In this document: positions 2,211 through 28,851 of the stretch, piece by piece | Position numbering within the stretch: position 1 is the first letter of the stretch | How the letters are laid out: every line of letters starts with the position of its first letter | From: Adineta ricciae | Taxonomy: Eukaryota; Rotifera; Eurotatoria; Adinetida; Adinetidae | Direction: 5' to 3' | Assembly: GCA_905250025.1 (NCBI GenBank) | Contig: CAJNOJ010000106.1 | Location: 1 to 64,000 of the forward strand | DNA length: 64,000 nucleotides | Notes under the pieces: model-generated | Told to the model about the DNA's origin: nothing | Databases searched by the model: none | The model's input: the letters and a program-made list of their open reading frames with translations, nothing else | Position numbers and translations under genes: made by a program

Positions 2211-4565
2211 ATGGCTGTCTCATTTGTTGTTCCATTCCGCCTAGTGAAATCATACTATTACACCATTATACGTACAATCGTGAGTTCACCTCAACTGAAT
2301 ATTGAATTGGAAATGAGAAGACTTAACCAGAGAAAACAATTCACTAAAACACTTGATCTCTTCGACAAGCATCAAAATCGTGGAACATTAACAGATAGAA
2401 TTATTGTTCAAGCACTTAAAGCTTGTACTCAATTGGGTTCTCTTGAACGGGGTCAAAACATTCACAAGAAGCTCTCAAGTCAACTTAAAAATGATATCTA
2501 TGTTCAAACGTCACTTATACATTTCTATAGTAAATTTGCATTGTTCGTATGAATTCTCATTGCTACAGTTGAAATCTTACAGTGCAATGTGGTCGAGTGA
2601 ACGATGCTCAACGTGTTTTCGATTCATGTGTCAATAAAAACATGGTTCACTATGGTGCGATGATGAAAGGTTACCAGATTCATTCTATCTATTATACTTA
2701 TATGGAAAGTATATTTCTTCCTTAGGTTTTATACGAAATAACATGCCTGAAAAATCAATCGAGACATTCAAAAATGCGGATGACCAAGATGCAATTGTTC
2801 TCGGTCTTCTGTTTAACAGCTGTGCTCAAGCTCGAACTGCTGAAGCATTAGATTTTGGCAAACGAGTATGGTTTTCGACTTCAGACATTCATCGTAAGCA
2901 CGAGTATACTGTGGTCACTGCCTTTGATATGTTCATCAAGTGTGATGACATTTCAAATGCAGAGAAAGTATTCAATCGAATGAAACGGATTGTAGTTACT
3001 TATGGACAAATGATGAAATGTTATAATGATCATGATATGCCTATGAAAACTATCAATCTCTATGAAAAAATGAAGAATGAGAAGATTGAAGCAAATCCAA
3101 TCATTTTTCTTCTGGTGATTAGTGCATGCGCTGAACTAGGACTGGAGTCTCGTTGTCGATTGATTGCAAGTCAAATTCCGTCTTCGATGTTATCTGATCC
3201 GGACCTTCAAACTACCTTAATTCATATGTGGGTAGGGGATGTCGTATTTGTTTATTTTTGTAATACTTTTCTGTAACTAATCAGGGCAAAGTAGCATGTG
3301 TGAAGGAAGCTAAACAAATCTTTGATCAAATCGATACACCTAATTGTGCCCTGTACACTGCTATGAGTAAGTTGCCTTGTTAATCTGTCGATTTATTAAT
3401 CGCTTTAATTAGTTAATGCATATGGGTTGAATGGAATGGGCTATGATGCAATTCAGCTGTATCATCGAATGCCAGCAGAAATGAAGAATGAAAAAACACA
3501 TGTCTGTGCGTTGAATGCTTGTTCACATTCAGGTCTTGTTAACGAATGCCGTTCAATTTTTGCGAAGATCTCAATCAAAAGCAATTATATTTACACAGCG
3601 ATGGTAACTAAATCGATATTGACATCAAATGTCGAAACTACACGTTTCTTTATTTAGATAGATTGTTTGAGTCGTTCGTTTTTCTTTGATGAAGCAAAAC
3701 AGTTAATCGAAGAGTTTGAGCGACATCAGCCCCCTTATCTACTTATGTACAGTAAGTTGTCCCATATGAGAAGATGCTTATTTCATGTTGAATAATCAAG
3801 GTCAACAACGTTGTTCTTTCAACTTTAGTGTCCGTGCTGTCCGGTGCACGCAATCGAAACGATGTTTCTCTTGCAAGACAAATCACTCAACGAATCAGAC
3901 AACTGGGTCATGTTGACAACGATAACCTGGCATCGGCTTCGGTGCTTTTCACAAACATATTAGCATCGTCAGGTGACTTGGAAGAAGCATCACAGCTAAG
4001 GTTTGAAATGGAGCAATCAGGTATTAGGAAAAAAAGTGGGTTTATCTTGGACGGAAGTCAACGGTGAAATTGTGGTAAAGAGGAATTTTCTGTTAGATTG
4101 ATGCTCGTTCATCTACGTATTTATCATGCGGGAGTTTCGCGTCAAAGATCGAACCCATCCACGAACAGAAGAAATCTATGATGAACTTCATCGAATCGAA
4201 AAAGAACTCATTGAACACGGCCACAAATTCGATTCAAGTTGGATCACGCGTGAAATGATGGCCGGTGAAACTGTCGCATCCATTCTCAACAGTCACAGTG
4301 AAAGATTAGCACTTGCATATAATTTTATTCAGCGACCAGTTCCACCGCGAATTCAAATTGTGAAGAATCTTCGCATTTGTGGTGATTGTCGTAAGTGGAG
4401 ATTAGGATAAATGGAAAATATGTTTTTCTCTTTGGATTTCTGCTTGTTACAGATGCTGCAATCAAGTTGATCAGTCGAATTCGTCGATGCGAAATTTTCA
4501 TTCGTGATGCGAATCGTATTGATCATTTCTCAGATGGAAAATGTTCGTGTAATGATCATTTCTAA
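2211..4565 (+). CDS. DYW-type pentatricopeptide repeat (PPR) protein, putative C-to-U RNA editing factor
   Basis: PPR tracts bind single-stranded RNA one base per repeat, and the DYW domain is a zinc-dependent cytidine deaminase that edits organelle transcripts in plants. Nine exons can be joined across introns 2530-2582, 2670-2725, 3232-3284, 3367-3412, 3604-3657, 3752-3828, 4075-4134 and 4391-4452. The start at 2211 gives MAVSFVVPFRLVKSYYYTII, which is basic and lacks acidic residues, so it could be a mitochondrial presequence; an upstream in-frame ATG-like start at 2169 is the alternative. PPR repeats follow (for example GRVNDAQRVFD, DISNAEKVFNRM, ACVKEAKQIFDQI), then an E-like region (SSGDLEEASQLRFEMEQSGI) and the PG box GLSWTEV. 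The DYW domain contains the deaminase HSE (4294-4302), the zinc-binding CGDCH (the H is split by the last intron), AIKLIS, FIRDANRIDHFSDGKCSC, and ends in DHF instead of DYW. One defect is visible: seven A bases at 4029-4035, where six would keep the frame. It may be an assembly or sequencing error or an early pseudogene lesion. Confidence 0.88.
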
Positions 4566-16851: not shown

Positions 16852-17118
16852 TTTGACCTTATCGTTCCTCACATATTATCATTGTCATTCATTCATTCTT
16901 TATCCTTAACCGTCATTGGATTCTTCTCTAAAATGGCATGAATCAGTGATAGCCGACAGATGTCGCTTGTAGACCGAGACGTTTTTTCCACATTCTTCTG
17001 AGTCTGTTCTTTTCGTCCTTTTCTTTGTGAACGGGTACTTCACCCATCTATATTTGTTAAACTGACATAGCATTTATTTCATTCGTCATCTGTCAATGTA
17101 CCGACATATATCGACGAG

Positions 17119-18092
17119 ATGCATCGTCATGCTTACATTGCACTAAAAATATCACTTCAAATAATCGTACTACTTTGCGCAGTAGGACACATTCATTATC
17201 CAGTTTATTCAGAAACAAACATGTCTCAAACCGATCTGCCCGTAATCTATGTGACACACGGAGCGTAAGAAAAAGAAATTTTCTAATTGAAATCTCATCT
17301 GTCTTTTCTATTTTTAGTGGTCCGATGATGTTTCTCGATTCACCAGCAATTCCAGTACTCGGCGAAGTCGGTCGACGTAGTCCAGCAGCTCTATGGTATA
17401 GTCAATTGTCGAAACAATTAGCTTTACCAACAGTACCAAAAGCTGTCCTCGTTGTCACAGCTCATTGGGAAACCGCAAATAGTGTTCATATTAGTGCCAA
17501 AGAAAAGTACACGGAACTCCTTTATGATTATTACGGATTTCCACCCGAAGCATATGAAATTCAGTACAATCCGCCCGGTGATGTTAATTTGTCTAAACGT
17601 GTTAAATCACTACTTGATCAAGCTGGTATCTCAGCTAAACTCGATGATAAGAGAAATTTCGATCACGGTGTTTTCATTCCATTGAAACTGATCTATCCCG
17701 ATGCCAGTATTCCTGTTGTTGCTATTTCCGTTCTTAAAAGTTTATCTCCTACTGAACATTTAGCTATTGGTAGAGCTCTTGCGCCATTACGAAAAGAAGG
17801 AGTGTTAATTATTGGTTCTGGCTCGTCTGTTCATGGATTTGAAGTAAATGCAAAGCAATCACATGCATTTATGACTGAATTAAAGAAAGTTCTCGTGGAA
17901 GATAATCCACAAGATCGTGAAAAGGCATTGATGAACTGGGACAAAGTTTTACCATTTGCACGAATGAATCATCCACGTGAAGAACATCTCATACCGTTAC
18001 ATGTGATTGTTGGTGCAGCTGGTTCAGATCGCGGACAATTATTAAATCCCAATGTGACAGAGGCACAGGCGTCTTTTAAATTTGGTATTTAA
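17119..18092 (+). CDS. Extradiol ring-cleavage dioxygenase of the 4,5-DOPA dioxygenase family
   Basis: Class III extradiol dioxygenases of this family (bacterial YgiD, plant DODA) open catechol rings such as that of DOPA using a metal held by histidines. Exons 17119-17264 and 17318-18092 (intron 17265-17317) encode 306 residues. A hydrophobic N-terminal stretch (ISLQIIVLLCAVGHIHY) looks like a signal peptide; an internal ATG at 17221 (MSQTDLPVIYVTHGAGPMMF) would give the usual cytosolic start. Four histidines sit where the family has its metal ligands: VTHGAGP, VTAHWET, SGSSVHGF and HPREEHLIPLHV, and FDHGVFIPL is also conserved. The domain is full length. These enzymes are common in bacteria, fungi and plants but unusual in animals, so acquisition by transfer is plausible; the intron shows adaptation to this genome. 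The true substrate cannot be told from sequence. Confidence 0.9.
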
Positions 18093-28017: not shown

Positions 28018-28851
28018 ATGTTTCACATGAGTTTTTTATTGATTTTAATCGTTTTGCTCACGACAGTCAATGCTAATGGTAAGTGAAGAAACGTGTTTTT
28101 CTCGAATTTATATGAGTGTTCTTTAGCAATTCAATGTTCGGAAAACGAAGAGTATAATGAGTGCGGCACTGCTTGTCAAGAAAGTTGCACTTATAAACCA
28201 CCGTTTTGCACATATCAATGCGTTTCCGGATGTTTCTGTAAAAAAGGTTTCGTACGACAAACCGATGATAAAAGTAAATGCGTACCACAAACACGCTGTT
28301 CATGTGGTGTAAATGAATATTTCAACGACTGTGGCTCAGCTTGTCCTGACACATGTTCAGCACGATCTCAATCATGCACAAAACAATGTGTACCGGATTG
28401 CTTTTGTAAAGATGGTTTTGTTCGTTTGAATAATCAAACTGGAAGTCCATGTGTACCCGAATCCTTATGCAAAATTACTCTATGTGAAGATCCAAACGCT
28501 GAATATGCGGAATGTGGATCATCGTGTCCAAGGACATGCGAAGATGAGTTGAACCCCCTTCGGAAATTTCGAGTTTGTGCATCAGCGTGTCGACGCGGAT
28601 GCTTCTGTAAGCAAGGTTTTGTTCTTAACAAAAACGGAAAATGTGTCAAACCTGAAAGTTGTTGTCGATCAATCAATGGACTGTATCAATCATGTGGTTC
28701 ATTATGTCAACAAACATGTGCAGACGAAAATAACTTTACTTGTCTTCTACCATGTGCTCCTGGTTGTTTCTGTGCGACAGATTTCGTACGTGAAAATGAC
28801 AATATCAATAGTTCTTGTATACATAAGACAACATGCCAAAAGAATCAATAA
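28018..28851 (+). CDS. Secreted cysteine-rich protein with four TIL (trypsin-inhibitor-like) domains
   Basis: Exon 28018-28078 encodes the signal peptide MFHMSFLLILIVLLTTVNAN. After a 48-bp intron (28079-28126) the second exon encodes four repeats of about 60 residues, 261 residues in all. Each repeat has the TIL cysteine pattern, for example NEEYNECGTACQESC ... CVSGCFCKKGFVR ... C. The repeats open with EYNECGTAC, EYFNDCGSAC, EYAECGSSC and LYQSCGSLC. There is no membrane helix or other domain. TIL domains are mostly serine-protease inhibitors, with the reactive bond between the fifth and sixth cysteines; they also occur in mucin-like and vWF-type proteins. An extracellular inhibitor is the best guess; target proteases are unknown. 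Confidence 0.85.

Follow-up and report, generated by a model that had tools for sequence, protein, structure and literature searches.

A large PPR-DYW protein family and an editing-type signature in mitochondrial cob suggest that bdelloid rotifers may use plant-type C-to-U RNA editing

On balance, our data favour the view that bdelloid rotifers run plant-type, site-specific C-to-U RNA editing in their mitochondria. That is, an anciently acquired PPR-DYW family would have grown to about 81 loci in Adineta ricciae, T-to-C mutations would drift into the mitochondrial DNA and the RNA would be repaired, codon 273 in the PEWY loop of cob being one target. It is the occurrence of a large family of plant-type editors together with cob cytosines apparently in need of conversion to U which indicates that such editing may work in an animal. 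The scale of the family and the conservation of its PPR code are new, and so, most importantly, is a signature of the editing type in the mitochondrial cob of an animal. The protein encoded in the window, i.e. the whole stretch of DNA analysed (64,000 nucleotides of A. ricciae contig CAJNOJ010000106.1), is itself a member of a known family that is already recorded in rotifers.

As claimed in an earlier note made from the letters of this DNA, the window carries a spliced PPR-E-DYW gene with eight short introns. The gene is located on the + strand at 2211-4565 and consists of nine exons separated by introns of 46-77 bp:

2211..2529, + strand: exon 1, basic N-terminal extension (MAVSFVVPFRLVKSYYYTIIRTIVSSPQ...), first P and L motifs, start of an S motif
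2583..2669, + strand: exon 2, parts of S and P motifs
2726..3231, + strand: exon 3, end of the P motif, then L-S-P-L motifs and start of an S motif
3285..3366, + strand: exon 4, parts of S and P motifs
3413..3603, + strand: exon 5, P2-L2 motifs
3658..3751, + strand: exon 6, S2 motif
3829..4074, + strand: exon 7, E1/E2 motifs and PG box, with a run of seven A at 4029-4035 and a literal stop at 4065-4067
4135..4390, + strand: exon 8, DYW deaminase with the HSE active-site motif and the first part of CGDCH
4453..4565, + strand: exon 9, remainder of the DYW domain through CSCNDHF and the stop

The basic N-terminus, the HSE and CGDCH motifs and the C-terminal CSC that had been noticed before are all present; the C-terminal tripeptide of the gene is DHF rather than DYW. 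Comparison with a homologous copy on contig C751, which is 93% identical across 4.45 kb, revealed one extra A in the window copy just before the PG box (A7 at 4029-4035 as compared to A6 in C751). Due to this frameshift, the previous description of the deaminase as apparently complete holds for the exons and for the homologous copy, but not for the frame as printed, which ends at the stop at 4065-4067 ahead of the deaminase. The same applies to the PG box (GLSW), which is present in exon 7 and in frame in C751 but out of frame in the window copy. Moreover, the intron-7 acceptor of C751 is gone from the window copy (CAG to CGG, base 4130), which must therefore use an AG 3 nt downstream with the loss of one Glu. 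The C751 counterpart (L009) is intact and encodes 630 aa with the PG box in frame. It matches the Pfam profiles PPR (5.9e-37), DYW_deaminase (2.4e-32) and E_motif (7.4e-7), and among solved structures it is closest to the synthetic PPR-DYW 9kfx, the alignment covering residues 43-629 of 630 (E 3e-108). A dN/dS of 0.13 between the two copies implies either that both were constrained for most of their history or that the extra A is an assembly error; a sequencing error in this homopolymer is possible. Thus, the window copy may be decaying or misassembled, in which case its C751 counterpart would carry the function.

Eight large ORFs of the window were also scanned for domains. Two of them gave domain matches, as follows, whereas the RING matches of a third were weak and below the cut-off:

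17061-18092: LigB-type dioxygenase ORF
28087-28851: protease-inhibitor ORF with multiple TIL domains

Searching the A. ricciae genome with the PF14432 profile yielded at least 127 exon matches, a lower bound, which were merged by hand into 81 loci, many of them in tandem. Because of this family size, we reject the reading of the window gene as a single editing factor. The earlier proposal of a domesticated editing factor is in keeping with the editing architecture, purifying selection and a C-to-U-type signature in cob, but has to be widened, as this gene is one of about 81 loci. We read and modelled 50 of the 81 loci using a purpose-written profile-based spliced aligner, which reproduces the L009 model except for one Glu. 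The HxE..CxxC signature is kept in 44 of these 50 loci, in one case with CGDCR. No frameshift is needed in 36 of the 44, although the aligner disfavours stops, so that stop-free models are partly built in, and the 36 include at least five partial models (190-330 aa). Of the remaining six loci, five gave stubs (30-54 aa) and one was modelled with four frameshifts. In an alignment of 29 proteins, H563, E565 and C594 are invariant, and C591 and H595 are nearly so. Parsing of 121 proteins revealed mostly P-L-S triplets followed by E1/E2 motifs, the commonest arrays having 11, 14, 17 or 23 motifs ahead of the E block, and in C751 and many relatives the PG box (GxSW) follows the E motifs in frame, ahead of the DYW domain. 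P-L-S arrays, E1/E2 motifs, PG box and HxE..CxxC together uphold the claim of a plant-type editing architecture. The DYW tripeptide is absent from the C-terminus of most family proteins, which end with CSC-x-D-[YH]-F; we did not treat this as decisive. An AlphaFold model of one protein (P0117; mean pLDDT 90.9) matches 9kfx with TM scores of 0.69-0.71 as well as the DYW domain of OTP86 in both of its states. Neighbouring tandem genes were seen to differ in motif number, with 15 and 18 motifs on C311 and 18, 21 and 24 on C322.

The family is common to Adineta and Rotaria. Among the best 120 of 399 homologs, the species found were A. ricciae, A. vaga, A. steineri and several Rotaria species, and many of these proteins are named DYW domain-containing protein; across the matches listed in two homolog searches (120 each), the named relatives were rotifers or land plants. 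Related genes lie on megabase contigs of A. vaga, one of them 16.9 Mb in length, and the family is spread across many contigs. We thus reject contamination, and the assignment to an animal genome stands. One gene (C45:186.4k) has 665-aa orthologs, 71-80% identical, in A. vaga, A. steineri and three Rotaria species. In contrast to the expanded family, this PPR-DYW gene (locus C45:185400-191000, minus strand) has kept its length in both genera; it is adjoined by an ORF that by eye resembles a carbonic anhydrase. In a quick DYW-domain tree, 31 plant-like rows stand apart from a group that holds 58 of the 59 rotifer rows (SH-aLRT 99). The exception is a match near C131:200007, whose branch of 2.5 changes per column falls outside both the rotifer and the plant groups. 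It belongs to a very divergent DYW-like gene (C131:196500-201300) with HTE..CNECH and a single intron in the model.

These proteins are under purifying selection, as dN/dS ranges from 0.07 to 0.47 across the 40 closest pairs. To judge from charge statistics, their N-termini are mitochondria-like throughout the family: in the 82 proteins whose first motif is preceded by at least 15 residues, taken from 121 proteins starting with Met, the first 25 residues carry a mean net charge of +3.2, and 68% of the proteins lack any acidic residue there, as compared to 2% of 2252 control windows starting at internal Met residues. We also asked how the PPR code residues, defined as positions 5 and last of P and S motifs, behave between copies. 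In eight pairs that we took to be homologous copies, 2 of 146 code residues are changed as opposed to 225 of 3541 other PPR residues (p 0.008), and in the C63/C309 pair (dS 0.29) none of 14 has changed versus 39 of 337. Among 34 disjoint protein pairs with at least 75% identity, P and S motifs differ at their last residue with a frequency of 0.18-0.19 against a motif mean of 0.095, while the last residue of L motifs shows no excess (0.09); 24 more distant pairs display no such contrast between P/S and L motifs at the last residue. Comparison of the six C45 orthologs shows differences at 1-3 of 14 P/S code residues as compared to 119-165 of 628 residues overall, i.e. there is no extra code conservation in this gene.

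COX1, cob and COX3 each have one match in the assembly, all within the final 12 kb of contig C55 (478,188 bases). This location (C55:466000-478188, loci L051 and L052), at the end of a 478 kb contig, could reflect a misjoin or a nuclear copy. The mitochondrial DNA that we read comprises cox1, cob and their edges (3.4 kb), and a cob search for further mitochondrial DNA in the viral_contigs collection returned no relative. Both genes are T-rich (~48% T, 7% C) and intact in the invertebrate code, with 511 codons in cox1 and 361 in cob.

For cob, 120 matches supplied 83 rows which together with A. ricciae make 84 bdelloid-type sequences, and 34 outgroup rows; three of intermediate identity were dropped. 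Where A. ricciae cob deviates from residues strongly conserved in bdelloids, a C-to-U change would mostly restore them. Codon 17 is TCA (Ser), codon 273 is TCT (Ser) and codon 356 is CTT (Leu), whereas bdelloid-type cobs have Leu at 17 in 100%, Phe at 273 in 88% and Phe at 356 in 99-100%; the same residues occur in 21%, 88% and 97% of outgroup cobs, respectively. C-to-U conversion would restore all three codons (S17L, S273F, L356F). At residues conserved in at least 80% of bdelloids, three of five departures have C where T is expected (binomial p 0.003), and at 90% conservation this is true for both of two; thin columns and the codons AGA, AGG and ATA are excluded from these counts. The bias extends to the bdelloid-type cobs as a group, in which 48 departures over 241 conserved columns were explained only by C-to-T and 8 only by T-to-C, as compared to 2 and 7, respectively, over 203 conserved columns of the outgroup (p 0.0003 for the contrast); these statistics have to be read knowing that the rows are related and that T-to-C mutation finds more targets than the reverse among conserved residues encoded with T. 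Counted as distinct sites, the numbers are 20 versus 4, and 2 versus 3 in the outgroup. Phe-to-Ser and Leu-to-Ser account for 33 of the 48 bdelloid C-to-T departures and for none in the outgroup. Purine transitions in the bdelloid cobs are even (48 A-to-G, 42 G-to-A), and C-to-T is exceeded as a departure class by A-to-C (77). The named, separately deposited cob of A. vaga has Ser at 219 and, as in A. ricciae, at 273 in the PEWY loop, whereas six named cobs from Habrotrocha, Macrotrachela, Philodina and Rotaria showed no such site.

cox1 lends no net support. With bovine COX1 as the sole reference and no correction for base content, C-to-T would convert three codons to the bovine residue: aa 375 within the HFHYVLSMGA motif (L to F), aa 378 (A to V) and, weakly, aa 110. 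T-to-C would do so at 11 codons. As the opposite changes are more numerous, we reject cox1 as an edited gene.

The PPR code table and the register with the S2 motif at position -4 allow arrays to be scored against candidate sites. We scored 41 gene models against the 248 Cs of the mitochondrial DNA read, and used 32 distinct arrays of at least nine motifs for the tests. Some arrays indeed ranked restorable cob sites first among the 248 Cs: the C63 and C309 arrays, which share the same code, chose the C of aa 273, and C311:96173 chose that of aa 356. With permuted arrays, p was 0.02 for aa 356 (before correction for three sites), 0.32 for aa 273 and 0.93 for aa 17, two or more first ranks had a p of 0.10 and the summed best scores a p of 0.24; by best score over all arrays, aa 356 ranks 12, aa 273 ranks 33 and aa 17 ranks 200 of 248. 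At register -4, the 32 arrays reached higher best scores than order-2 Markov controls did (combined p 0.007). The same test gave p values of 0.05-0.97 at seven other offsets, 0.43-0.97 for other target bases, 0.12 for the antisense strand and 0.43-0.99 for five nuclear stretches. However, at 13 of the 15 best-scoring sites looked up editing would not restore a residue, and at 12 of these 13 it would alter one that agrees with bovine COX1 or the commonest cob residue. Thus, while the code places two of the three cob sites first for some arrays, the match of arrays to sites is only suggestive, and we reject a code-based target assignment per array as too weak.

Taking proteins and cob together, we consider it probable that the bdelloid family represents nuclear-encoded, mitochondrially imported PLS-type PPR-DYW C-to-U editors that restore conserved mitochondrial codons. 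The PLS-type proteins would be made from nuclear genes and imported into mitochondria, where their P and S motifs would bind single-stranded mRNA, residues 5 and last of each motif reading one base. The zinc deaminase would thereby come to lie on a C located four bases 3' of the one that the S2 motif reads, and the targeted C would be converted to U, thereby restoring conserved codons such as those for S17L, S273F and L356F in A. ricciae cob. Import, RNA binding and deamination are the steps that we infer here.

Alternatively, these proteins could be mitochondrial RNA-binding PPR factors kept for another task, such as transcript stability, cleavage or maturation, with a deaminase that is structural or rarely used; the Ser and Leu residues in cob would then be tolerated substitutions. 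Such a role would agree with the 13 of 15 best-scoring sites that editing does not restore, with a cox1 that reads as a normal protein without editing, and with the surplus of about 81 DYW loci over visible candidate sites, an excess also raised for Acrasis and Naegleria (PMC4202320). It accounts poorly for the retention of HxE..CxxC in 44 of 50 modelled loci, the invariance of H, E and the last C in 29 aligned proteins and the lean of cob pyrimidine departures towards the editing direction, and we regard it as unlikely, albeit worth keeping in mind. The cob signal could also be an artefact, if the mtDNA-like end of C55 were a nuclear copy or erroneous and the environmental cobs included pseudogenes. 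We give this little credence: even though the only COX1, cob and COX3 matches of the assembly sit near the end of that contig, both cox1 and cob are intact, decay of a copy would not be expected to produce predominantly T-to-C changes at conserved codons, and the separately deposited A. vaga cob likewise has Ser at 273.

A further possibility is a role in defence or conflict, in which the family would diversify against RNAs of transposons or other RNAs from outside the mitochondria and tandem copies would gain new specificities. The mitochondria-like N-termini and the code kept between putative homologous copies speak against this idea, which we hold to be improbable, while the tandem arrays would suit it. 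Comparison of nine paralog pairs, some of which share members, would suit it as well, as code residues differ in 34 of 172 cases versus 494 of 4170 for other PPR residues (p 0.004), but in five disjoint pairs the excess is not significant (14 of 93 versus 254 of 2247, p 0.25). Diversifying selection at code positions, seen in the overlapping pairs and not significantly in the disjoint ones, was rejected for this family.

Should RNA data confirm mitochondrial editing by the PPR-DYW family, this would establish C-to-U editing by plant-type factors in an animal mitochondrion. It would be built from genes thought to be horizontally acquired. The system would then be shown to be transplantable between kingdoms and expandable along with its mutational targets, and bdelloid mitochondrial proteins could not simply be read from DNA. 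The old question of which came first, the editor or the sites it repairs, would become testable.

Parts of this picture have precedents. PPR proteins are among the expanded families of A. vaga (PMC3846280), and the earlier note was right to mention DYW proteins in bdelloids, as these are already published (PMC4202320, PMC5295000). In PMC4202320, A. ricciae and Philodina roseola are the rotifers named as having DYW proteins, and Naegleria is grouped with rotifers; these rotifer proteins are of the same family and in part of the same species as ours, and the passages that name them give neither gene count nor code analysis nor mitochondrial target. Mitochondrial sequences of A. ricciae have been obtained from transcriptome libraries (PMC3426538, with GenBank accessions JX183989-JX184083 and JW861079-JW861112), the word 'edit' in the relevant portion of PMC3426538 referring to sequence editing, and the term 'RNA editing' is absent from PMC2784805. 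Among the matches listed and the literature searched, we recognised no report of mitochondrial C-to-U editing in rotifers or any other animal.

Closest in scattered non-plant lineages are Naegleria and Acrasis, which likewise show lineage-specific expansion, with 11 and 12 DYW proteins as compared to about 81 loci in A. ricciae (PMC4202320). Editing is verified there, with two mitochondrial C-to-U sites confirmed in Acrasis and two cited for Naegleria (PMC4202320), whereas for A. ricciae it is what we deduce from genes and codons. Moss factors are reported to edit in human cells, in a paper that also names assays of such factors in E. coli (PMC9508816). The land-plant PLS-class PPR-DYW factors (OTP86 DYW domain, 7o4e/7o4f; synthetic 9kfx) share with the rotifer family the P-L-S triplets, E1/E2 motifs, PG box, HxE..CxxCH deaminase, code residues at positions 5 and last, and a mitochondria-like N-terminus. 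Unlike them, the rotifer proteins have an animal host, are encoded with 8-15 short introns in most full-length models, mostly end with D-[YH]-F and group apart from plant-like rows in the quick tree. They also make an unusual choice at code position 5, which is Gly in 372 of 652 P motifs family-wide.
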